A DNA stretch of 51,492 bases from Gammaproteobacteria bacterium (GTDB lineage Bacteria; Pseudomonadota; Gammaproteobacteria; S012-40): positions 1 through 51,492 of the forward strand of contig JAOUJM010000006.1 of NCBI GenBank assembly GCA_029883265.1, read 5' to 3'. Each line of letters starts with the position of its first letter. Position 1 is the first letter of the stretch. A program made the translations under genes and the position numbers. The notes under the pieces were generated by a model. The model had not been told where the DNA came from, ran no database searches, and worked only from the letters and a program-made list of their open reading frames with translations. This document shows positions 26,259 to 37,258 of this stretch, piece after piece.

Positions 26259-26672
26259 TTATTTAACGAGTTTTAGTTCAGGGCGATCAGGTTTTTTATT
26301 CGTCGGCGAGTTATCCGGATCGGGTGATGGTGTCGAAGGTTCTTCAGCAAACACCATGCCTTGGCCATTTTCACGAGAATAAATGGCCATTACCGCATCA
26401 ATTGGCACCCAGATTTCACGAGATTTACCGCTAAAACGCGCAGAAAACGATAAATATTCATTATCGATATTCAAATTTGCAACAGCAGTTGGAGCGATAT
26501 TTAAAACAATTTTTCCCGCTTCAACATATTCACGCGGCACATCGACATTTTCCGCTTGAGCGTCAACCACCACAAACGGCGTCATGTCATTGTCGACAAT
26601 CCACTGCTCCAATGCACGTAATAAATAGGGACGACTTGAGGTCATTGCTGAACCGGTTGTGTCCATGCTCAT
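26259..26672 (-). CDS. sspB: ClpXP protease specificity-enhancing factor SspB
   Basis: 137 aa. Cytosolic adaptor that binds ssrA-tagged polypeptides and hands them to ClpXP. The N-terminal substrate-binding domain has RPYLLRALEQWIVDNDMTPF and the block VNLNI/VLNIAPTAVANL; a flexible acidic linker follows (110-130). The C-terminal tail LKLVK (133-137) matches the ClpX-docking XB motif. The start overlaps the sspA stop by one base. Confidence 0.95.
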   Translation of the reverse strand: MSMDTTGSAMTSSRPYLLRALEQWIVDNDMTPFVVVDAQAENVDVPREYVEAGKIVLNIAPTAVANLNIDNEYLSFSARFSGKSREIWVPIDAVMAIYSRENGQGMVFAEEPSTPSPDPDNSPTNKKPDRPELKLVK

Positions 26673-27298
26673 TAAGTATTTAGTGTTTTCTCGGTTTCTG
26701 TCATGCTGGATTGAAATGATGGACGCTCAAACAATCTAGCTGCGTATTCTTGAATGGCTGTCGGTTGACTCGACATGTCGATACCCCAAGAATTCAAACG
26801 CCACATAAGGGGAGCCACACAACAATCAATTAAGGAAAAATCTTCGCTCATGAAATATGGCATGGCTTCAAATATTGGAACCACTGATGTCAGGCTAGCC
26901 TTGAATTCCGAGCGTGCTTTTTCTTCTCTAGCTGAATCGCCTGAAGATATATCGGCAAGCAAGGTATACCAATCAGAATCAATGCGATGCAACATTAAGC
27001 GTGATCTTGCTCTAGAGACTGGATCAACAGGCATTAATGGCGGATGCGGAAAACGCTCATCTAAGTATTCCATAATCACCCGAGAATCATATAGCACCAA
27101 ATCACGGTCCACCAAGGTTGGCACAGTGTTATAAGGGTTTAAATCGATTAAATCTTCTGGAAGCTGCCCGGGCTCTACTTCAAAAACCTCAAATGTGACG
27201 CTTTTTTCAGCTAAAACCAAGCGAGCACGGTGACTATAACAGTCATTTGCACCAGAATATAAGGTCATTACCGAGCGCTTATTGGTAATAACAGCCAT
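26672..27298 (-). CDS. sspA: Stringent starvation protein A (SspA)
   Basis: 208 aa, GST-fold protein associated with RNA polymerase and induced in starvation; in E. coli it supports stationary acid tolerance. N-terminal thioredoxin-like part MTLYSGANDCYSHRARLVLAEK, followed by NPYNTVPTLVDRDLVLYDSRVIMEYLDERFPHPPLMP, the diagnostic SspA block. The catalytic residue of active GSTs is absent, as is normal for SspA. Positioned downstream of the act operon but separated from it by a strong terminator. Confidence 0.95.
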   Translation of the reverse strand: MAVITNKRSVMTLYSGANDCYSHRARLVLAEKSVTFEVFEVEPGQLPEDLIDLNPYNTVPTLVDRDLVLYDSRVIMEYLDERFPHPPLMPVDPVSRARSRLMLHRIDSDWYTLLADISSGDSAREEKARSEFKASLTSVVPIFEAMPYFMSEDFSLIDCCVAPLMWRLNSWGIDMSSQPTAIQEYAARLFERPSFQSSMTETEKTLNT

Positions 27299-27390
27299 AT
27301 TTTGCTTCTCCTAACACCTGAATTTGCACAAACCTAGGGGGCACACAACGATATAGTTGACTAGCAATTACTGATCCGTGGTGGCCATAA

Positions 27391-27422
27391 ATAAAAAAGG
27401 GCAAATGGAAAACCATTTGCCC
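27391..27422 (-). terminator. Rho-independent terminator of the act operon
   Basis: On the minus strand: a 10-bp perfect stem (GGGCAAATGG / CCATTTGCCC), a 4-base TTTT loop, and then TTTTTT. It lies 26-57 bases after the actF stop and about 90 bases before the sspA start, so the alternative complex III genes and sspAB are probably separate transcripts. Confidence 0.9.
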
Positions 27423-27447
27423 CGAATCATACCATAAATACAGAATT

Positions 27448-28491
27448 CTAGCTCGGTTTAACCAAACCAAATCGATTGAGTGACCAACGGATCGTCATAA
27501 AAGCGGCGCCGGCTACTAAAATTGTAACAAGAATATCAAATCCAGATGTCATCGGTGTATGGTAGTGCTCTGGAGAAACCGACCCAGATATCCAGGTATA
27601 GCGTTCCAACCAAGTACCGATGACAACACTCGTCGCGACAGCAACCACTAATGCTGGTGTGTTACGCACTCGTGCAAAAATCAATGAGCAGAATGGTATA
27701 ACAAATTTCATTGCCAAGAATGTCCACCAAATTCCGCTTAAATCATTGTCCATCATATTACGAAAACGTACGATTTCTTCAGGTAAGCGCCCATACCACA
27801 TGATTAGATATTGGGTGAAATACAAATACGTCCACAAGATAGTAAAGCCCAGCATTACTTGCGCTATATAATTTATAATGCGGTCAGGCACATTTACCCT
27901 TAATTTTCCAGATCGTTTCAATACAAATAGGAAAATTGCAAAAAACGCTAGGAAAAACTGGAACAGACTTATGAAATGATAGGCTCCATAACTTGCACTA
28001 TGCCAGCTTGGAATCATAGTCATTTCAAAATCCCAAGCAACCATAGTCGCATAAGACACATATACAAACGGAATTAACAAAGCCACATTTCTAAATCGAC
28101 GTTGTACTGCGTAGGAATCATCCTTCACTGCGTCAGCTTGATACTTTATAAATAAACCATAAAGCCCAGCTACAACTAGAAATGCTACGATTTGGCGCGT
28201 GACTAGAAATGTATAATTATGCCAACCCGGCATATGGTGTCCTTCACCTCCGCCATCATGAGCGTGAGCCAACCATTGAAAGGTGTGTTCACCACCCACC
28301 AATAAAATAATCAAAAGGACAAACGCTAGCGGAAATAAGGCAAACAAAGATACCGACAAAAAGCGTACATGCTCACGCCATTTACCATTAACCAAATGTA
28401 AAATGGCGGCGAGTGTCACCCCGTTCACAGCGATATAAAGGATAATTAAAAAATTTGTCGTTAAGACGGACCAGCTACCAAAGCTTTCCAT
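27448..28491 (-). CDS. actF: Alternative complex III subunit ActF (membrane)
   Basis: 347 aa polytopic membrane protein with about ten hydrophobic helices (for example LIILYIAVNGVTLAAILHL and FPLAFVLLIILLVGG). ActF is the smaller NrfD/PsrC-related quinol-side subunit of alternative complex III. Aromatic and His-rich periplasmic loops (GGGEGHHMPGWHNYTF) fit the family. It is the last gene of the seven-gene operon, 23 bp after actE, and is followed by a terminator. No cytochrome oxidase genes follow it, unlike in many act clusters. Confidence 0.85.
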   Translation of the reverse strand: MESFGSWSVLTTNFLIILYIAVNGVTLAAILHLVNGKWREHVRFLSVSLFALFPLAFVLLIILLVGGEHTFQWLAHAHDGGGEGHHMPGWHNYTFLVTRQIVAFLVVAGLYGLFIKYQADAVKDDSYAVQRRFRNVALLIPFVYVSYATMVAWDFEMTMIPSWHSASYGAYHFISLFQFFLAFFAIFLFVLKRSGKLRVNVPDRIINYIAQVMLGFTILWTYLYFTQYLIMWYGRLPEEIVRFRNMMDNDLSGIWWTFLAMKFVIPFCSLIFARVRNTPALVVAVATSVVIGTWLERYTWISGSVSPEHYHTPMTSGFDILVTILVAGAAFMTIRWSLNRFGLVKPS

Positions 28492-28514
28492 ATTGCTACC
28501 CTTCTCTCAATCTC

Positions 28515-29063
28515 TTAGTTTATCGACGCGGTACCAGAGGCGGCCGCATCTTTGACTAATTGTTTTTTAACATAATTGACTACATGCCAACGCTCTTCTG
28601 GTGACAAATCATTAGAACCACCAACTTCTCGAGTTGGAACACCATAGGCTGGCATGATTGCACTACCAAAAGTTATTGTGCCCCAAATCCAACCCTCGGT
28701 TAGTGTTTCTTGAACGTAGTCACTAGTTAAATCAATCGCTCCAATCTTCGGACTAACAGGCGAATCTGCTTTACCAGTTAAACCATGACAGGCTGCACAA
28801 ATAATTTTAAAAAGCGTCTTCCCTGTTTTCAAAGATTCGGCCGTCGCAGGAAACGGATTTTTCAATTTTTCTGCCGCCTGACGATCTTTGACTTTTGTTG
28901 GAATACCACTTACCGGTACCGAACGTTGAGGGAAAACTGCTGGCGGTCCCTCCTGCGGCTTAATACTCGGTTGATTCATCATATCGGTAGACCAAGGCCA
29001 AGCAAAAACTTGTACCGGCACCACCATTAACATTGCCAAGAAAAATAAGTTTCGCTTAATCAT
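28515..29063 (-). CDS. actE: Alternative complex III monoheme cytochrome c subunit ActE
   Basis: 182 aa. Signal peptide cleaved near VFA (residue 21). One class-I cytochrome c domain with CAACH (89-93) and probable axial Met137 in SAIMPAYG; C-terminal helix WHVVNYVKKQL. ActE carries electrons out of the complex to a terminal oxidase or soluble cytochrome c. No lipobox Cys is visible, whereas ActE of some Bacteroidetes complexes is a lipoprotein. The start overlaps the actD stop. Confidence 0.92.
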   Translation of the reverse strand: MIKRNLFFLAMLMVVPVQVFAWPWSTDMMNQPSIKPQEGPPAVFPQRSVPVSGIPTKVKDRQAAEKLKNPFPATAESLKTGKTLFKIICAACHGLTGKADSPVSPKIGAIDLTSDYVQETLTEGWIWGTITFGSAIMPAYGVPTREVGGSNDLSPEERWHVVNYVKKQLVKDAAASGTASIN

Positions 29064-29584
29064 GTAACCGCCTCTTCCCTAATTTCAATGGATTTCTGCT
29101 TCTTGAAATACTCTTTAACTGATTTCAATTTATGTTCGTCAACTTCCAACATAATGCCACATTGATCAACGGTCAGCTTTTCACTATATAAGGTGCCTCG
29201 CTTACGCAACAAACCGGCAAGAAAAAGAAACGAAAAAACAGTCGTCCAAATACCAAAGAAAATCAGCATTTCATACATGAGAACAAAATTGGTGGGGAAC
29301 GGTACGACGGCTTTACCTCCCTGTGGCTGCACAAGAAAACTTGCTTGTGCTGAAGCCAAAAAGAAAAACCCAAAAGTAACGCCAAAAACCGCCCCAGTGA
29401 ACGTAAACTTCTGCACGTTAACTTTGCGCTCTAAAATTTCATCAATGTCGGGATGTTCGATTGGTGATAGGTAATCCACATCATCAATCGAGACCCCGGC
29501 ACATCCGCCGGCTTTAATGTCGCGCAACACGGGCAACGAATCATCAAAGCCTTTAAACATTGCCAATAAACGATGTTTACTCAT
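29060..29584 (-). CDS. actD: Alternative complex III subunit ActD (DUF3341)
   Basis: 174 aa. Cytoplasmic N-terminal domain beginning HRLLAMFKGFDDSLPVLRDI with GCAGVSIDDVDYLSPIEHPDID, then two transmembrane helices (VFGVTFGFFFLASAQASFLV and LMYEMLIFFGIWTTVFSFLF), matching the DUF3341 ActD subunit. It carries no cofactor and packs against ActC. Overlaps actC by one base and actE by 4 bp, so it is tightly coupled. Confidence 0.92.
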   Translation of the reverse strand: MSKHRLLAMFKGFDDSLPVLRDIKAGGCAGVSIDDVDYLSPIEHPDIDEILERKVNVQKFTFTGAVFGVTFGFFFLASAQASFLVQPQGGKAVVPFPTNFVLMYEMLIFFGIWTTVFSFLFLAGLLRKRGTLYSEKLTVDQCGIMLEVDEHKLKSVKEYFKKQKSIEIREEAVT

Positions 29585-30999
29585 TACGCGCCCTCCAATC
29601 CGGGTTTACCGACCGCACCTGCCTTCGATTTCGAACTCGTCGCAGCCGCTTCTTTTTCTTCTTCCATTTCATGCTTCAAATGGAACGTCAGTTCTTTTAC
29701 TTCATACATAGACACCGATGGGAACAATTTCACAAACACCAGGAATAATAATGAGAACCAACCAAAACTTCCGAAGACAATCGCCCATTCGATGATCGAG
29801 CCATATAACACATCCCATTGGTGTGGGTTATGTGCCATAGATAAGGTTGGTGCCACAATCATCCAACGTTCCACAAACATGCCCAATTGTAATATCAAGG
29901 AGACCGCAAACATGGTCGGCATATGCCTTCGCAGTTTTTGGAATGCCAGCGCAAATGGTGCAACCGATCCGCAGAATAACATTAACCAAAATATGTGTGC
30001 GTAGGGCCCATTGGCTTTATTGATTAACAACTCTTTATCGTATGTGTTGTGTCCATACCAAGTTGAAGCAAATTCAATAATATTTAAATAACTCCAAACC
30101 ATGGCAATGGCGAAGGTCAACTTACAAGTTTTTTCCATGATATTTAACGTCATGTACTCTTCCATACGGAAGAAATAACGCAAAATAATGAATAAGGTCA
30201 TAATCGCCGCACAACCTGAATACAATGCACCCGCTACGAAGTATGGTGGGAAAGTTGTTACGTGCCAACCAGGCATAATCGACATCGCAAAGTCAGACGA
30301 TACAATCGAATGCACGGATACCGCCAATGGGATTAAAAAGCACGCCATTAACATATAAGTCTTGCGGAACACGCGCCATTGTCTGTCATCACCACGCCAG
30401 CCTAATGCAAGAATGCCATAGGCTTTACGACGCCAGCCTTTCGCATGATCACGCAAAATCGCCATGTCGGGAATCATTCCGATAACCAGGAACAATGCAG
30501 ATGCAGATAAATAGGTACTAATCGCAAATGCATCCCATACTAGAGGTGAACGAAAGTTTGGCCAAATTCCTCGATCACTGACATAAGGAAGTACCCAGTA
30601 CAAATTCCATACACGACCCAAATGGATCATAGGAAAGAAACCTGCTGTCATTAATGAGAAAGTGGTCATGGCTTCTGCAAACCGATATATCGGCTTACGC
30701 CATTGCGCATGAATAATGTGCAGAATCGCGGACAACAGGGTTCCGGCGTGACTCATGCCAATCCAGAATACGAAGGTTGCGATATACATATCCCACATGT
30801 GCGGGTTATTTAAGCCAACCGTACCCATACCCATGCGATATTGATAAATCTCTGCTGCAACCGCGCACAACACCATCGCAATACATACAGCAAAGGTTAT
30901 CCAATAATATTTTCCGGGTGCATCCATAGAACGGATCACGTCTTCGTTAATCCGTTGCCACCCTAAGTTTTCGTCGATAATTTTGTCTTTAATTTCCAT
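29584..30999 (-). CDS. actC: Alternative complex III quinol-binding membrane subunit ActC (NrfD family)
   Basis: 471 aa, about ten transmembrane helices, NrfD/PsrC type. ActC holds the quinol oxidation site and touches the Fe-S protein. Typical stretches: WITFAVCIAMVLCAVAAEIYQYRMGMGTVGLNNPHMWDMYIATFVFWIGMSH in the first two helices (residues about 33-85), and PGWHVTTFPPYFVAGALYSGCA mid-protein. The C-terminal cytosolic tail is charged and Ala/Lys rich. It lies 33 bp after the Fe-S gene and overlaps actD by one base. Confidence 0.94.
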   Translation of the reverse strand: MEIKDKIIDENLGWQRINEDVIRSMDAPGKYYWITFAVCIAMVLCAVAAEIYQYRMGMGTVGLNNPHMWDMYIATFVFWIGMSHAGTLLSAILHIIHAQWRKPIYRFAEAMTTFSLMTAGFFPMIHLGRVWNLYWVLPYVSDRGIWPNFRSPLVWDAFAISTYLSASALFLVIGMIPDMAILRDHAKGWRRKAYGILALGWRGDDRQWRVFRKTYMLMACFLIPLAVSVHSIVSSDFAMSIMPGWHVTTFPPYFVAGALYSGCAAIMTLFIILRYFFRMEEYMTLNIMEKTCKLTFAIAMVWSYLNIIEFASTWYGHNTYDKELLINKANGPYAHIFWLMLFCGSVAPFALAFQKLRRHMPTMFAVSLILQLGMFVERWMIVAPTLSMAHNPHQWDVLYGSIIEWAIVFGSFGWFSLLFLVFVKLFPSVSMYEVKELTFHLKHEMEEEKEAAATSSKSKAGAVGKPGLEGA

Positions 31000-31032
31000 A
31001 ACGTGCCCTTTATGACTAATGCACTCAGTCGA

Positions 31033-31875
31033 TTAAACTTCGGTCTCTCGGACCCGCTCAAGATACATGATTGAAGGATCAACGTTTAATTCTTCAAACA
31101 CCCGATAACCACGCAATTCTGCATTTTCTTTCGGCTTCTTGTGCGTATATGGACCGCGCTCAACTTGGTGTTTACGCCAAGCTTTGCTGACCTTGCTGTT
31201 TGGATCTAAGGTATCACCAAAAGTAATCGCATTGGTTGGGCAAGCTTGCGCACACGCTGTTACAAAATCCTGATCCTGCAATTGGCGTTTTTCACGTTGT
31301 GCAGTATCTTTTGCGGTGCGGATGCGTTGGACACAGAAAGTACATTTTTCCATAACACCCTTATCACGCACAGACAAATCTGGATTCAGTTGTTGATTCA
31401 AGGGTTCTGGCCAAGACTGTTCGTAGTACGACCAGAAATTAAAGTAACGAACCCGGAAAGGGCAGTTATTTGAGCAATAGCGAGAACCAATACAACGGTT
31501 ATAAACTTGAGCGTTCAAACCATCAGGCGTGTGGTATGTTGCTGCTACCGGACAAACCGGTTCACACGTTGCCGCCCCGCATTGCTGGCACATCATTGGA
31601 ACAAATGATGCACCTTGTTCGGGAAACTCGCCATCGGTTTCATCCCAATAACGTTCAACCCGCAACCAGTGCATGGCTTGACCTTTTTCAAATTTCTCTT
31701 TGCCAACAATGCCTAAATTATTTTCAGCATAACAAGCGGTTGAACATGCATTACAACCAATGCACAAATTCAAATCGATCGACATTGCCCAACGATGTTC
31801 ATAATCATGGTGACCACCAACTTCGGCATCGCGACGAAAATCCGAGAAGTTCTCCAGAATATTTTTTAAAGACAT
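31033..31875 (-). CDS. actB2: Alternative complex III Fe-S subunit (ActB C-terminal part, B2)
   Basis: 280 aa ferredoxin-like protein of the DmsB/NrfC type. Fifteen ligand Cys are visible (38, 41, 44, 48; 96, 99, 104, 108; 128, 134, 138; 178, 181; 208, 212). That is exactly enough for three [4Fe-4S] and one [3Fe-4S] cluster, the composition reported for ActB. The CIGSRYCSNNC block lacks one Cys where a 4Fe cluster would need it. In most described complexes this domain is fused to the molybdopterin-like domain; here it is a separate gene 3 bp downstream. Confidence 0.93.
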   Translation of the reverse strand: MSLKNILENFSDFRRDAEVGGHHDYEHRWAMSIDLNLCIGCNACSTACYAENNLGIVGKEKFEKGQAMHWLRVERYWDETDGEFPEQGASFVPMMCQQCGAATCEPVCPVAATYHTPDGLNAQVYNRCIGSRYCSNNCPFRVRYFNFWSYYEQSWPEPLNQQLNPDLSVRDKGVMEKCTFCVQRIRTAKDTAQREKRQLQDQDFVTACAQACPTNAITFGDTLDPNSKVSKAWRKHQVERGPYTHKKPKENAELRGYRVFEELNVDPSIMYLERVRETEV

Positions 31876-31878
31876 AAA

Positions 31879-34095
31879 CTAAGCCTCCCCTTCTGTACGA
31901 CGGAACTGATCCGCAGACACCGTGCGCACAAATCCACGCCCCAGTTGCGTTTCGCTTCCACCCATTTTCACCAATACCTCAGACTTATTGGTCTTGGTCA
32001 CTTTTACACGTGTGGCGTAGAGCGCCAGTTCACCTGTTTTCTCTTCACTCACAGCATCAAGAATTTTAAGTGGATTCACACCACGATCCTTGGCATATCG
32101 TCCATAGGCACTATGACCTTGCCCCATCGGTACAGCAACCACATTCGGGTGTATGCCTTTGTGTACATAGACTTGAGTTTCAATAGAGCCACTAGCGGAT
32201 GACACACGAATAAAATCTCCGTTTTGCACACCAAGCTTACCTGCCGTCGATGGATGTAACTCAGCCCAGGAACCCCAAACCACTTTCGATATTTGATCGG
32301 GTGCTTCTTGCAACCAAGGAATATTTGCGTGTCGACCATCCCACAGACCTAAACGCGCAGACGGTACTAAGTGCATGGGATACTCACTGTTTTTGCTCAC
32401 GGTGGCCGCTTTTATTGCGCGTGGTTTTGGCGTTAACTTTGGTGTATTACTACCAGCGTTTAACACACCATTCTGCAACAAGTTCGTCCACATTTGATCG
32501 CGAGACCCTTTTAAACCACTACGAACCGACTCAGGCATATTCACCATGGCAGTTTTTAGATATGAATAATAATCCGGGAATTTGTTATAAGCATTGGATT
32601 TGACTTTAAGCAAACTCAACATGACATCACCAAAACCACGGGTATCCTTATAAAGTGGTTCCATCAACGGCTGCTGAATACTCAAGCTAACTTTTTCCGG
32701 CTGATACGCAGGAACATGCGATCCCCAATCCTCCATTGACGAATAGAGCGGTAATACTAAGTCAGCAGCTAATGCTGTTTCATCAGGATGTTGGGTCAAA
32801 GCAACTTTAAAACTTGCGTTTGACAAGTTTTCTTTCACCCGCAAAGCATCAGGTGCTGTATAAACTGGGTTACTGTTAGAAAAGAAAAGCAAATCAAATT
32901 TTTTGTCTTCCAAGCCTTGTGCAAACTTGACGAGATCGCCTGTATTTCCCGACTTGGCGCGCAATGCACGCTCAGGAAACTTGTTACCAGCTTCAATCGT
33001 GTTACCGATGTTGCCCATAATGATGTTTAACAACATAACCGCAGATGCTGCATCATAGCCATTGGCCTGACCCTCAACAGTAGCTCCAGCAATAGCCAAA
33101 CTCGGCGCACGTTCTGAAAATAAACTAGCGATACGTTGAATTTTTGTTGCAGGCACACCAGTAAGTCCAGCGACGGTATCCACATCATAAGCAGCAAGCG
33201 CTTGCTTGACCGTACCAGGTACATTTTCTTTATTCCAACCACGATCAAGAATAAAATTGGCGACCCCTAAAGCCAAGGCACCTTCGGTGCCCGGGTTGGC
33301 AGCAATCCATAAATCTGCGTTCCCTCCGGTCAAGGTCATTTTTGGCTCAACTTGAACTAACATACCACGCTGACCACTGCGGAATTTCGCATATTCGCCA
33401 GCGAAATGCACAGGGGACTTCCAAGTTCCAAGAAAATCCGCGCCAAAGGAAACAATTATTTGTGCTTTATCCAAACGCAAACGCGGTTCGGCATCGCCAA
33501 TCATGTCGGCGCAAACTTGCGACCAAACTGAGCTGTTAATTGTTTCATGTGCAAAATGATTTTTTGAACCAACACTGGACAAGAATTCGGAAATTAAAAC
33601 ACTTTGATGGCCTGAGACACTTCCCGATACCCAAGCAATCTTGCTGCCCGAAGTACTCTTAATGCGCTTACTCAGTTCAGCCATCGCATCGTCCCATGAG
33701 ATGGGTTGCAAACCCGCACCCTTACGCATCATGGGTTGAGTCACACGATCAGGGTTGTAATGATTTTGCACCCCGGCTTGACCCATCAAACAAGTACTAC
33801 CATTATTGATGAGTGAATCAGGATTTCCTTCAACCTTCAGAATACGTCCTTCGCGCACGCGCCCGTGCAAACCGCAACCTGCATCGCATTGAGTACATGT
33901 CGAGGCATACCAAACACCGATACCAGGAATAACATATTCTTCGGGGACTACATAAGCTACAACTTCCTCTTTACCTTCTTCCAAGGTAATTGTTGTTGGC
34001 AAATCGCAAGCGGTTAACGCGGTACCGGCACCACCCCAACCCAATGCTTTCAAGAAGCCTCTGCGATTAACTTTAATGTCGTTCATATCGTTCAC
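31879..34095 (-). CDS. actB1: Alternative complex III molybdopterin-oxidoreductase-like subunit (ActB N-terminal part, B1)
   Basis: 738 aa. N-terminal twin-arginine signal RRGFLK (11-16) followed by lipobox LTAC (Cys30), so it is predicted to be exported folded and lipid-anchored. The body is the CISM catalytic fold (SGSVSGHQSVLISEF, LADLVLPLYSSMEDWG). ActB1 subunits characterised so far have no molybdenum. A cluster motif C67-x2-C70-x3-C74 ... C102 is present near the N-terminus. In the ActB sequences I remember from Bacteroidetes this motif is lost. The Fe-S partner is encoded directly downstream as a separate protein. Confidence 0.92.
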   Translation of the reverse strand: MNDMNDIKVNRRGFLKALGWGGAGTALTACDLPTTITLEEGKEEVVAYVVPEEYVIPGIGVWYASTCTQCDAGCGLHGRVREGRILKVEGNPDSLINNGSTCLMGQAGVQNHYNPDRVTQPMMRKGAGLQPISWDDAMAELSKRIKSTSGSKIAWVSGSVSGHQSVLISEFLSSVGSKNHFAHETINSSVWSQVCADMIGDAEPRLRLDKAQIIVSFGADFLGTWKSPVHFAGEYAKFRSGQRGMLVQVEPKMTLTGGNADLWIAANPGTEGALALGVANFILDRGWNKENVPGTVKQALAAYDVDTVAGLTGVPATKIQRIASLFSERAPSLAIAGATVEGQANGYDAASAVMLLNIIMGNIGNTIEAGNKFPERALRAKSGNTGDLVKFAQGLEDKKFDLLFFSNSNPVYTAPDALRVKENLSNASFKVALTQHPDETALAADLVLPLYSSMEDWGSHVPAYQPEKVSLSIQQPLMEPLYKDTRGFGDVMLSLLKVKSNAYNKFPDYYSYLKTAMVNMPESVRSGLKGSRDQMWTNLLQNGVLNAGSNTPKLTPKPRAIKAATVSKNSEYPMHLVPSARLGLWDGRHANIPWLQEAPDQISKVVWGSWAELHPSTAGKLGVQNGDFIRVSSASGSIETQVYVHKGIHPNVVAVPMGQGHSAYGRYAKDRGVNPLKILDAVSEEKTGELALYATRVKVTKTNKSEVLVKMGGSETQLGRGFVRTVSADQFRRTEGEA

Positions 34096-34115
34096 CTTTT
34101 CCTATTAATCGCTTA

Positions 34116-34754
34116 TTACTTATGACATTTCCAGCAATCGCCGGGACCACCATTGGCTTGATGGCAACGCTGACAAAATCCCATATTCAGTGGCTTGGTT
34201 TTTTCCGCCACGGTCATCTCGCGAATTTCACCATGACAAAGACCACAAACCTGTTGCACGTCCTCCACCGGGAAGTTGGCATCAAACACAAACTTACGAA
34301 TATGTTTCTCGTGAGTGAAGTGCACATAATCAGGTACATCATGTACTTTTTTCCAACGTGGTGATTCACCGTTTTCCCAATATTCAGTTAATTTCTGAAT
34401 ACGTGGTTTATCAGTAGCAATCATTTTGTGACAACCCATACATTTACTGGTTGGCGGAATGCCCGCGACCTTCGAGCGACGCGCATACGTATGGCAATAC
34501 ATGCAGTTAATCTTGTTATCCTTAACGTGCGTGTTATGCGGAAATTCTATCGGTTGCGGAACGTTCTCACCTTTATGCTCACCCACTGGTGCAACAATAT
34601 GAGACGGCACAGGCAACTCTGCTTGTGCGTAGGAAGCAATAAAAAAACTTGCTAGTGCAAAATAAATTGCAGTGCTTATTGTTCGTGACGATTTATAAAA
34701 AATCGTTGAGCAATAACGCAAATAGCAATTCCGTGTATGTACAGTAAATCGCAT
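34116..34754 (-). CDS. actA: Alternative complex III pentaheme cytochrome c subunit ActA
   Basis: 212 aa. Hydrophobic signal/anchor about residues 27-44 (TAIYFALASFFIASYAQA). Five CxxCH heme sites: CMYCH 84, CMGCH 105, CGLCH 170, CQRCH 194 and CWKCH 207. Five hemes in one small periplasmic protein at the head of a cluster with an Fe-S/molybdopterin-like pair and two NrfD-like proteins is diagnostic for ActA. First gene of the act operon, 20 bp before actB1, with a long upstream control region. Confidence 0.95.
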   Translation of the reverse strand: MRFTVHTRNCYLRYCSTIFYKSSRTISTAIYFALASFFIASYAQAELPVPSHIVAPVGEHKGENVPQPIEFPHNTHVKDNKINCMYCHTYARRSKVAGIPPTSKCMGCHKMIATDKPRIQKLTEYWENGESPRWKKVHDVPDYVHFTHEKHIRKFVFDANFPVEDVQQVCGLCHGEIREMTVAEKTKPLNMGFCQRCHQANGGPGDCWKCHK

Positions 34755-34957
34755 CTCTCACCCTCAAATTGGTTTTATTATTTCTTAAAAAAATCGCAAA
34801 AACGATTTTCATAGAAAAAAAATAACCCCCTGTCGCTTGTTTTACCTTGCAACAGAGCCAAAACTTTTTTTGAAAAAATAGCGGATGTTCATCAGTAGTT
34901 TGGACAAAACTACTGCCGCCTCCCTTTTTGTGACAACCCCCTCCTGCTGCTCACAAT

Positions 34958-34971
34958 CTGATCTATATCAG
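34958..34971. promoter_or_regulatory. FNR/ANR-like binding palindrome upstream of actA
   Basis: CTGATctatATCAG is a perfect 5-bp inverted repeat that keeps the TGAT-N4-ATCA core of the FNR/ANR box (consensus TTGAT-N4-ATCAA), with only the outermost bases different. It lies about 204 bp upstream of the actA start. It would make oxygen-dependent control of alternative complex III plausible. A regulator gene is not in the window. Confidence 0.45.
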
Positions 34972-35148
34972 TATTTACTTATAAAAAACCTATAATTATC
35001 TATCAATTAATTTGATGTCTAACGATGCTAGACTAATTCAAAGTAAATTGTCAACGGATTTTGTCAATTTTGCATACGCGTTTAAGCATACTGATTTAAT
35101 TAAAAAAATTAGCAAATACTGAAATAGGTGCGTGAACCAGAGGGCTCA

Positions 35149-35173
35149 ATTGCAAATAATAATGATTTGCATT
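35149..35173. promoter_or_regulatory. Fur-like inverted repeat
   Basis: TGCAAAT-aataatg-ATTTGCA (35151-35171) is a perfect 7-bp inverted repeat with a 7-bp spacer. The full stretch resembles the GCAAATGATAATnATTTGC form of Fur boxes. It lies between the nif3-like stop and actA, about 400 bp upstream of actA. There is no obvious plus-strand gene directly downstream, so its target, if any, is unclear. Confidence 0.35.
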
Positions 35174-35247
35174 CCAACTGAACTACATGATCTTGCATGA
35201 AATATTTCTTATGACAAAGTATAGAAGGAATTCTACGGAAAGCCTTT

Positions 35248-36006
35248 TTATATAGGATTTTCTTGATCAAAAAAACTATACGTGAGATCAAATTTTTTTA
35301 CTAATAATTCAGCCAATGCTTGCACACCATAACGCTCTGTTGCGTGATGTCCCGCACTAAAAAAATTCACTTGGTTTTCCATCGCGCTATGGAAATTATA
35401 TTCCGATGCTTCACCAGTCAAATAAGCATCAACTCCACGTGATATCACTTCATCAAAATAGGATTGTGCACCACCACTACACCAGGCGATCGATAGAATT
35501 TTTTTATCATTACCTTTCACATACACCGGTTTGCGCCCTAATTTTCTTTCAAGGTGTGAAGCAAACTGATCAGCATCCATCGCCGTTTTTAATTGTCCTT
35601 GGTAACCAATCCCAATGGCACCACCAAGATCAAAGCGCTGCTCTACCTGCATGTCTAGCTTTAATGCGAGTTGTGCATTGTTCCCCAGCTCAGGATGCGC
35701 ATCCAAAGGCAGATGATAAGCCACTAAATTGATCTCATGGGATAACAGGGTTTGAATACGCTTGCGTTTTATCCCCGTAAGTACTGGCGATTCACCGCGC
35801 CAAAAATAGCCGTGATGCACTAACAGCATATCTGCATTGATTCGCACGGCCTCATCAATCAAAGCTTGCGAAGCACTAACGCCTGCTAAGATGGATTTAA
35901 TTTCACGACGCCCTTCGACTTGCAGACCATTAGGACCATAATCGTTATATTGGTCTACGCTTAACACATTATTCGCATATTCTAATATATGCTTTAACTC
36001 AGGCAT
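35248..36006 (-). CDS. ybgI: Nif3-like dinuclear metal center hexameric protein
   Basis: 252 aa from ATG 36006 (MPELKHILEYANNVL), chosen for the AGGAG site 8 bases upstream and homology; the frame is open to 36138. Metal-site motifs: LLVHHGYFWRGE, NLVAYHLPLDAHPELGNN and, near the C-terminus, SAGHHATERYGVQALAELL. Cytosolic toroidal hexamer with a di-metal centre; it has been proposed to act as a GTP cyclohydrolase-like or general hydrolase, but the role remains unsettled. Diverges from the degS-like gene across 61 bp. Confidence 0.94.
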   Translation of the reverse strand: MPELKHILEYANNVLSVDQYNDYGPNGLQVEGRREIKSILAGVSASQALIDEAVRINADMLLVHHGYFWRGESPVLTGIKRKRIQTLLSHEINLVAYHLPLDAHPELGNNAQLALKLDMQVEQRFDLGGAIGIGYQGQLKTAMDADQFASHLERKLGRKPVYVKGNDKKILSIAWCSGGAQSYFDEVISRGVDAYLTGEASEYNFHSAMENQVNFFSAGHHATERYGVQALAELLVKKFDLTYSFFDQENPI

Positions 36007-36067
36007 GAGTTTCTCCTGGTGATAAAAAGGATTACACTTACGCTTTTCAACAACATGTGCGGCTATT

Positions 36068-37258
36068 ATGGCAGACTCCGACGAACAACGTAACACCATC
36101 AGAACCTTAATAAAATTCACCTTAATCGGTATGACCATCGCATTCGTGGTGCTCTATATCGCAGATGATGACGTTAAAATAGATTTTTCCTCATCAACAG
36201 TGGAATTTAAGGAGATTAGCGCAGAAGATGATAAGCAACTGCATGACAAGGCCATGCAAGGGCCCGTATCATATTCAAATGCTGTCGCCAAGGCCGCGCC
36301 ATCCGTCGTCAATATTTTTACCGCCAAAACCATTACCCAAGAACGCGCACAAGTTTTTGAAGATCCATTATTCGAATATTTTTTTGGTGATCGTGCGCCG
36401 ATGGCGCCACAAAAACGCACTGAGACCAGTTTAGGATCAGGCGTCATCATTAGTGAACAAGGTTTTATTTTGACAAATAATCATGTCATCGAAAGCGCAG
36501 AAGAAATACAAGTCGCATTAAAAGACGGTCGTAGCGCTCAAGCAAAAGTCGTCGGCACGGATCCAGAATCCGATTTAGCTGTATTACAAATTACACTTAA
36601 TAATCTTCCTAGTATTACCATGGGTCATTCTGGAAATCTAAATGTAGGTGATGTGGTATTAGCCATTGGTAATCCGTTTGGTGTCGGCCAGACAGTGACT
36701 ATGGGCATTGTTAGTGCCACCGGTCGTGATCGCATTGGCTTAAATACGTTCGAAGATTTTATTCAAACAGATGCTGCTATAAATCCCGGCAACTCCGGTG
36801 GCGCACTGATTAATGCACATGGTTACTTAGTTGGCATTAATACAGCGATTTTCAGCCGATCAGGTGGCTCGCAAGGTATTGGTTTTGCTATCCCAGTTTC
36901 AGCCGCAAAAGATGTCACTCAACAAATTATTGAAAAAGGTCATGTGGTTCGCGGATGGCTTGGCATTGAGATTCAAGACATGACACCTCAATTAGCCGAA
37001 TCCTTTAGCCTAGATGAAGTCAGCGGCGTTATTGTTGCCGGTGTCTTGAAAAACGGCCCGGCCGATCAGGCTCAATTACGGCCAGGCGATATCATCATTA
37101 AAATCGAAGGTGAAAAAGTGAGTGATGGCAAGTTTGCAGTGAATCGTATTGCCCGTGCCGCACCAGGCACACAAATCAATTTATCCATTTTACGCAACCG
37201 TAAAAATATGGAGATTAAAGCCACGACGGCGGAACGCCCAGTGCCACAGGACAATTAG
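36068..37258 (+). CDS. degS: DegS/AlgW-type periplasmic serine protease
   Basis: 396 aa. One N-terminal membrane helix (about 13-31, TLIKFTLIGMTIAFVVLYI) tethers it to the inner membrane. The trypsin-like domain has His139 (NNHVIESAE), Asp169 (ESDLAVLQI) and Ser243 (NPGNSGGAL). A single PDZ domain occupies about 290-390. One PDZ plus an anchor is the DegS/AlgW layout, in which outer-membrane protein ends activate cleavage of anti-sigma-E RseA/MucA. It is longer than E. coli DegS (355). The nif3-algW pairing also occurs in Pseudomonas. Confidence 0.9.
   Translation: MADSDEQRNTIRTLIKFTLIGMTIAFVVLYIADDDVKIDFSSSTVEFKEISAEDDKQLHDKAMQGPVSYSNAVAKAAPSVVNIFTAKTITQERAQVFEDPLFEYFFGDRAPMAPQKRTETSLGSGVIISEQGFILTNNHVIESAEEIQVALKDGRSAQAKVVGTDPESDLAVLQITLNNLPSITMGHSGNLNVGDVVLAIGNPFGVGQTVTMGIVSATGRDRIGLNTFEDFIQTDAAINPGNSGGALINAHGYLVGINTAIFSRSGGSQGIGFAIPVSAAKDVTQQIIEKGHVVRGWLGIEIQDMTPQLAESFSLDEVSGVIVAGVLKNGPADQAQLRPGDIIIKIEGEKVSDGKFAVNRIARAAPGTQINLSILRNRKNMEIKATTAERPVPQDN

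Follow-up and report, generated by a model that had tools for sequence, protein, structure and literature searches.

The window analysed here, that is, the whole stretch of 51,492 nucleotides of gammaproteobacterial DNA, raises the question of what an ActB protein encoded by two genes is doing with a molybdoenzyme-like set of four cysteines. The original prediction treated the split and the cysteine motif as a peculiarity, and considered an extra cluster or a state near the molybdoenzyme ancestor possible. Open reading frames and family profiles reveal a complete actA-B1-B2-C-D-E-F operon on the (-) strand of the window, with the following features.

34116..34754, (-) strand: ActA, pentaheme cytochrome c (ORF; 5 CxxCH; Cytochrome_C7 match; QrcA below cut-off)
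31879..34095, (-) strand: ActB1, molybdopterin-oxidoreductase-like, with Tat motif, lipobox C30 and C67/C70/C74/C102 (ORF, families, alignments, model)
33790..33897, (-) strand: CX2CX3CX27C, putative [4Fe-4S] motif, ActB1 codons 67 to 102 (translation; Pfam Molybdop_Fe4S4)
31033..31875, (-) strand: ActB2, ferredoxin-like, 15 Cys, three [4Fe-4S] and one [3Fe-4S] expected (ORF, Pfam, alignment)
29584..30999, (-) strand: ActC, NrfD-like membrane subunit (Pfam NrfD, 91.5 bits)
29060..29584, (-) strand: ActD (Pfam ActD, 76.8 bits, cut-off 25.7)
28515..29063, (-) strand: ActE, monoheme cytochrome c (Pfam Cytochrome_CBB3 / Cytochrom_C; one CxxCH)
27448..28491, (-) strand: ActF, putative second NrfD-like membrane subunit (operon position and similarity to relatives)

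ActB1 has 738 amino acids from its GTG start (an in-frame ATG occurs at codon 4), and ActB2 has 280, with an ATG start and 15 cysteines. Three bases (31876-31878) lie between the stop of B1 and the start of B2, and the coordinates thus confirm the two genes, with a 3-bp gap and a separate stop and start, that had been described originally. Pfam matches to Molybdop_Fe4S4, Molybdopterin and Molydop_binding occur in B1, and matches to 4Fe-4S dicluster domains in B2. No Pfam or NCBIfam family matched ActF at E 1e-3; its identity to the proteins whose genes occupy this operon position in the split loci compared is 42-75%. ActC weakly matches the ActF proteins of relatives.

The operon has a pentaheme ActA and a monoheme ActE (5 and 1 CxxCH), an ActB with a MopB-like part and a four-cluster ferredoxin part, and an NrfD-like ActC and an ActD that both exceed their Pfam cut-offs, all of which are expected of alternative complex III (ACIII). 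It lacks a one-gene ActB, which is usual in solved ACIII, but is not defining, as split forms are published. Judged from these sequence features, the operon is an ACIII of the split-ActB type, with a predicted role as a quinol:cytochrome c oxidoreductase. We also considered the menaquinone reductase QrcABCD, which resembles the window in having separate B and C subunits, and whose QrcB is the top NCBIfam model for B1. We rejected this assignment because the QrcB score is 295.1 bits against a cut-off of 440 and because ActD, ActE and ActF are present in addition; Qrc is a complex of four subunits (PMC13059093) and has none of these three.

To what extent split ActB occurs elsewhere was surveyed in Pseudomonadota, with other phyla represented by four PDB sequences and one Planctomycetota plasmid record. 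A search of 369 genomes of the class gave a B1 relative in 36 of them (threshold E 1e-60), and all 36, each of which was examined, have a split ActB with the four cysteines. A sample of 299 genomes of the phylum contains 33 that are ActD-positive, all of them examined. Seventeen of these, including the window's genome, have a split ActB with the four cysteines, and 10 have a fused ActB without them; 4 are interrupted by contig ends and 2 have no ActB match. The 16 split four-cysteine loci beyond the window's genome appear from size and similarity to be Zetaproteobacteria, and B1 of these Zetaproteobacteria-like loci is 43-46% identical to that of the window.

All 13 fused ActB proteins that were examined have none of the four cysteines. 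Three of the 13 are plasmid-borne (from Paludisphaera, Nitrobacter and Martelella). Rows below 80 bits were left out of the comparison alignment, including the fused protein L096, which was checked separately afterwards. In alignments with the fused ActB proteins of known structure (PDB 6f0k, 6lod, 8k9e and 6btm), no cysteine occurs at any of the four positions. The original statements that described ActB proteins are mostly fused and that Bacteroidetes ActB has lost the motif therefore agree with the solved structures.

Since the window comes from a draft assembly of 520 contigs, the split could in principle be an assembly error or a frameshift in a normally fused gene. However, B1 and B2 are separate genes in 50 of the 50 loci that hold both, and their junctions range from genes that overlap by 11 bases to genes that are 30 bases apart. 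Because the junctions vary in this way, the split is genuine, and we rejected the artefact, whose probability we regard as negligible. Split ActB with a four-cysteine B1 is the rule in the window's clade, and is normal for Zetaproteobacteria-like lineages as well. The original prediction had itself named a clade in which split ActB is usual as evidence against a peculiarity, and this is what we found, with 36 of 36 B1-positive genomes of the class alike and a published precedent (Kato et al. 2015).

Some individual loci in the survey deserve mention. In one (L104, 7575-9956, genome G449), a single open frame spans B2 and ActC, and B2 leaves the frame before its end. We rejected a true B2-ActC fusion and read this as probably a frame shift within B2 in a draft genome, because the reading becomes unrelated sequence ahead of ActC. 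In another (L123, 10898-12857, genome G252), most of B1 is repeated internally in tandem, and a truncated B2 start separates the copies. Given that the copy is identical, the second B1 was rejected as a paralogue, and is a recent duplication or an assembly error. In G504 and G630 (L107 and L106), an ActD-family match lies beside a distant ActC-like protein with no ActB match, and this pair perhaps belongs to another NrfD-type complex. A Deinococcus match (H29) is a lone oxidoreductase with no act genes adjoining, and was rejected as an ActB.

The four cysteines of B1 have the spacing C67-x2-C70-x3-C74-x27-C102 (numbered from the GTG). Pfam Molybdop_Fe4S4 covers residues 62-114 with 45.9 bits (cut-off 22.7), so that the translation and the family match both bear out the cysteines originally noticed. 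Sequence, Pfam and alignment agree that B1 has the N-terminal CX2CX3CX27C that is expected of an FS0-binding CISM subunit. The motif is present in all 62 split B1 sequences that span this stretch (51 plus 11, with L005 and L019 being the same protein), and because of this retention it reflects neither chance nor sequencing error. The Tat signal and lipobox, also part of the original description, hold up: every row of a 42-row alignment has the R11-R12 pair of the Tat motif, and C30 is a cysteine in 50 of 51 split B1 rows. Each of the 15 cysteines of B2 is conserved throughout the 50 split and the 12 fused rows aligned.

Split actB1/actB2 genes with CX2CX3CX27C were reported in iron oxidisers by Kato et al. 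2015, who call it a [4Fe-4S] binding motif (PMC4643136), and split ActB with this motif was therefore already known. The ACIII operons of Ferriphaselus, Sideroxydans, Gallionella and Mariprofundus have the same actAB1B2CDEF order, split ActB and motif as the window (PMC4643136), and the spacing of the motif is identical. The window differs in belonging to another lineage. Split actB1/actB2 without ActF is also reported in passages of a 2025 study of Nitrospirales (PMC12342949). The split ActB of the window is thus no artefact. It is conserved, usual for its clade and known from earlier work, and in these respects mostly ordinary.

We compared split B1 with fused ActB and with molybdoenzymes, the latter represented by 8 distant rows (L002, L003 and L006-L011). 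The lysine two positions after the fourth cluster cysteine presumably links the cluster and the pterin. It is found in 8 of 8 molybdoenzyme rows, while the 51 split rows have methionine (50) or leucine (1), and two more split B1 proteins have isoleucine. The window's B1 has methionine, and so lacks the Lys/Arg of a Mo/W-bisPGD subunit. Alignment column 187, which we take to be the Mo-ligand position, is occupied by cysteine (7) or aspartate (1) in the molybdoenzyme rows. The 51 split rows include asparagine (38), proline (8) and glycine (2), and never cysteine. The window's B1 has asparagine here, and therefore no amino-acid Mo/W ligand, although some members of the group have none.

Other residues are shared differently. 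The acid of PGT(D/E), at position 271, is aspartate in 8 of 8 molybdoenzymes and glutamate in 50 of 50 split rows, and is replaced by Ile, Val, Met or Leu in 10 of 11 fused ActB proteins. The ArrA-like stretch GQGHxxYGRYA is kept by split B1, but lost from fused ActB. By contrast, E250, G257 and Q596 are common to split and fused ActB and are not general in the molybdoenzyme rows. As far as these residues can tell, split B1 has lost the molybdenum signatures and kept Fe-S ligands, as well as pieces of a pterin-nucleotide site that fused ActB lost. This looks like a graded decay from molybdoenzymes to split B1 (cluster ligands, no Mo signature) to fused B1 (neither). The literature passages that we searched, in searches not aimed at this point alone, do not contain the three-way residue comparison. 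The loss of the Mo ligand and lysine beside retained Fe-S ligands and pterin-site pieces is what the present analysis adds.

Fold and phylogeny bear on the origin of the cysteines. An AlphaFold2 model of B1, made with 42 split B1 sequences, has a pLDDT of 82.6 and a pTM of 0.85. Its top Foldseek match is ArrA, and its top VIA-align match is Roseiflexus ActB (6lod; Z 36.2, rmsd 2.5 Å, 595 residues), tied with Chloroflexus ActB (Z 35.8) and followed by ArrA (6cz7; Z 33.8, rmsd 2.6 Å over 625). In a tree of 38 rows (from 68) that excluded the Fe-S stretch, the molybdoenzyme rows are apart from all ActB (100/97), fused ActB forms a clade (100/100) and the split ActB of gamma and zeta-like loci forms another (97/97). 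Five partial or duplicate rows had been left out of an earlier tree, and both trees gave long-branch warnings. A deep split ACIII from genome G017 (L032/L122) forms an open fork with the fused and split clades, and a single clade of split ActB plus L032 was not rejected (p-AU 0.276). This locus (L122, on contig C102 of G017) has a full split actA-F operon and the four cysteines (B1 36% and B2 50% identical), with leucine at the lysine column and asparagine at the Mo-ligand column.

Because molybdoenzymes possess the cysteines, those of split B1 were most simply inherited from a molybdoenzyme and lost on the fused branch. Given the root and the placement of L032, we infer this history rather than prove it. 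The suggested closeness to the molybdoenzyme ancestor survives in part, in that the cysteine set is best read as inherited, but the Mo ligand and the bridging lysine are gone.

Could B1 nevertheless be a catalytic subunit of the Arr/Psr type, in an operon that is not an ACIII? Its fold and sequence resemble ArrA of the arsenate respiratory reductase ArrAB, including the C-terminal GQGHxxYGRYA-like stretch, and its Fe-S motif is intact. However, ArrA has a cysteine at column 187 in the alignment, where the window's B1 has asparagine; B1 lacks both a Cys/Asp ligand and the bridging lysine. The partners ActA, ActD, ActE and ActF are those of ACIII, and E250, G257 and Q596 are of the ActB type that fused ActB shares. 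We consider this reading very improbable, and rejected a catalytic molybdoenzyme on the Mo-ligand column and the missing lysine.

A different concern is that the four-cysteine site is empty, a mere leftover, or serves another use (disulfides or zinc), leaving B1 without a redox cofactor. Cysteine conservation alone could be compatible with an unfilled or differently used site. There are parallels, as B1 of the fused Rhodothermus ActB has no prosthetic group (PMC5928083) and QrcB is stated to have no redox cofactors (PMC13059093). On the other hand, a mere remnant should erode, so the invariance of the four cysteines in 62 of 62 split B1 proteins counts against it, and all four are lost in 13 of 13 fused ones. 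Kato et al. also assign a [4Fe-4S] binding motif (PMC4643136). We regard the empty or differently used site as unlikely. The sequence evidence favors a split-type ACIII whose B1 has lost molybdenum but kept the N-terminal [4Fe-4S] (FS0) ligands, and we hold this with good confidence. Most likely, B1 has a single additional [4Fe-4S] cluster and is free of molybdenum, which keeps the originally proposed extra cluster plausible, and the site is probably filled.

The Rhodothermus ActB has three [4Fe-4S] clusters and one [3Fe-4S]; the quinol site of ActC passes electrons to FeS1 of B2, which is ~11 Å away from heme I of ActA, and the role of FeS2-FeS4 is termed elusive (PMC5928083). With the order of the wire taken from solved relatives, electrons from quinol at ActC would pass to the [3Fe-4S] cluster of B2 and on to the hemes of ActA and ActE, and might flow in reverse whenever quinone has to be reduced. 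B1 and B2 are probably exported by the Tat system after folding as a pair in the cytoplasm; B1 would carry the only Tat signal of the two, and a lipid anchor at C30. A cluster in B1 would bring the number to five. It would sit at the distant end of the wire through B2, in the former place of molybdenum, and would lengthen the FeS2-FeS4 wire by one step toward the old Mo site. Its role might be to store electrons at the end of the wire, to support the structure or to serve as a side port. We think that, if filled, it is terminal, with a store or structural role first and a side port second. A bolder view, which we put forward as quite doubtful, is that split B1 represents a surviving stage on the way from a molybdoenzyme to an ActB without cofactor. 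It would have a fifth cluster and perhaps a bound nucleotide (e.g., metal-free pterin) at the PGTE / GQGHxxYGRYA site, and the cluster would provide ACIII with another electron port, one that suits autotrophs in which electrons run backwards into the quinone pool.

A bc1-type cytochrome b is encoded in the window's genome too, along with five matches to the haem-copper oxidase family and three to the family of the RuBisCO large chain; some of these three may be RuBisCO-like proteins. Such a set fits an autotroph in which ACIII may work in the reverse direction. The act operon is flanked on one side by a Nif3-like gene and an HtrA/DegP-like protease and on the other by sspA-sspB (window 26259-37258, names from translations), a spot that in Gammaproteobacteria is the usual place of petABC (bc1). 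HtrA or Nif3 adjoins the act operon in 14 of 18 gammaproteobacterial loci examined (L141-L158 compared), and sspA in 6 of the 18. In the window's genome the cytochrome b gene is found on a different contig (C230), and in L155 and L158 a bc1 cytochrome b gene and the act operon are no more than a few kb apart.

Expression data from iron oxidisers are available for related complexes. A Mariprofundus 'molybdopterin oxidoreductase Fe4S4 region' protein is highly expressed in Fe(II) oxidation (Singer et al. 2011, PMC3179512). In Sideroxydans ES-1, ACIII genes increase by up to log2 6.84 once Fe(II) is added, and reverse electron transport was proposed in that study (PMC8788666). A similar link was proposed for 'Candidatus Tenderia electrophaga' (PMC5371394).

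The solved ACIII of Rhodothermus (6f0k), Flavobacterium (6btm), Roseiflexus (6lod) and Chloroflexus (8k9e) share the B1 fold, the 15 cysteines of B2 and the Act modules with the window. However, all are fused, with a single ActB gene, none of the four B1 cysteines and no B1 cluster, whereas the split type, which is common in Gammaproteobacteria and iron oxidisers, is predicted to have five clusters. The structure of a split ACIII would reveal the fate of a molybdoenzyme wire after the loss of molybdenum, and would show whether the cluster plays a part when quinone is reduced by reverse electron transport.
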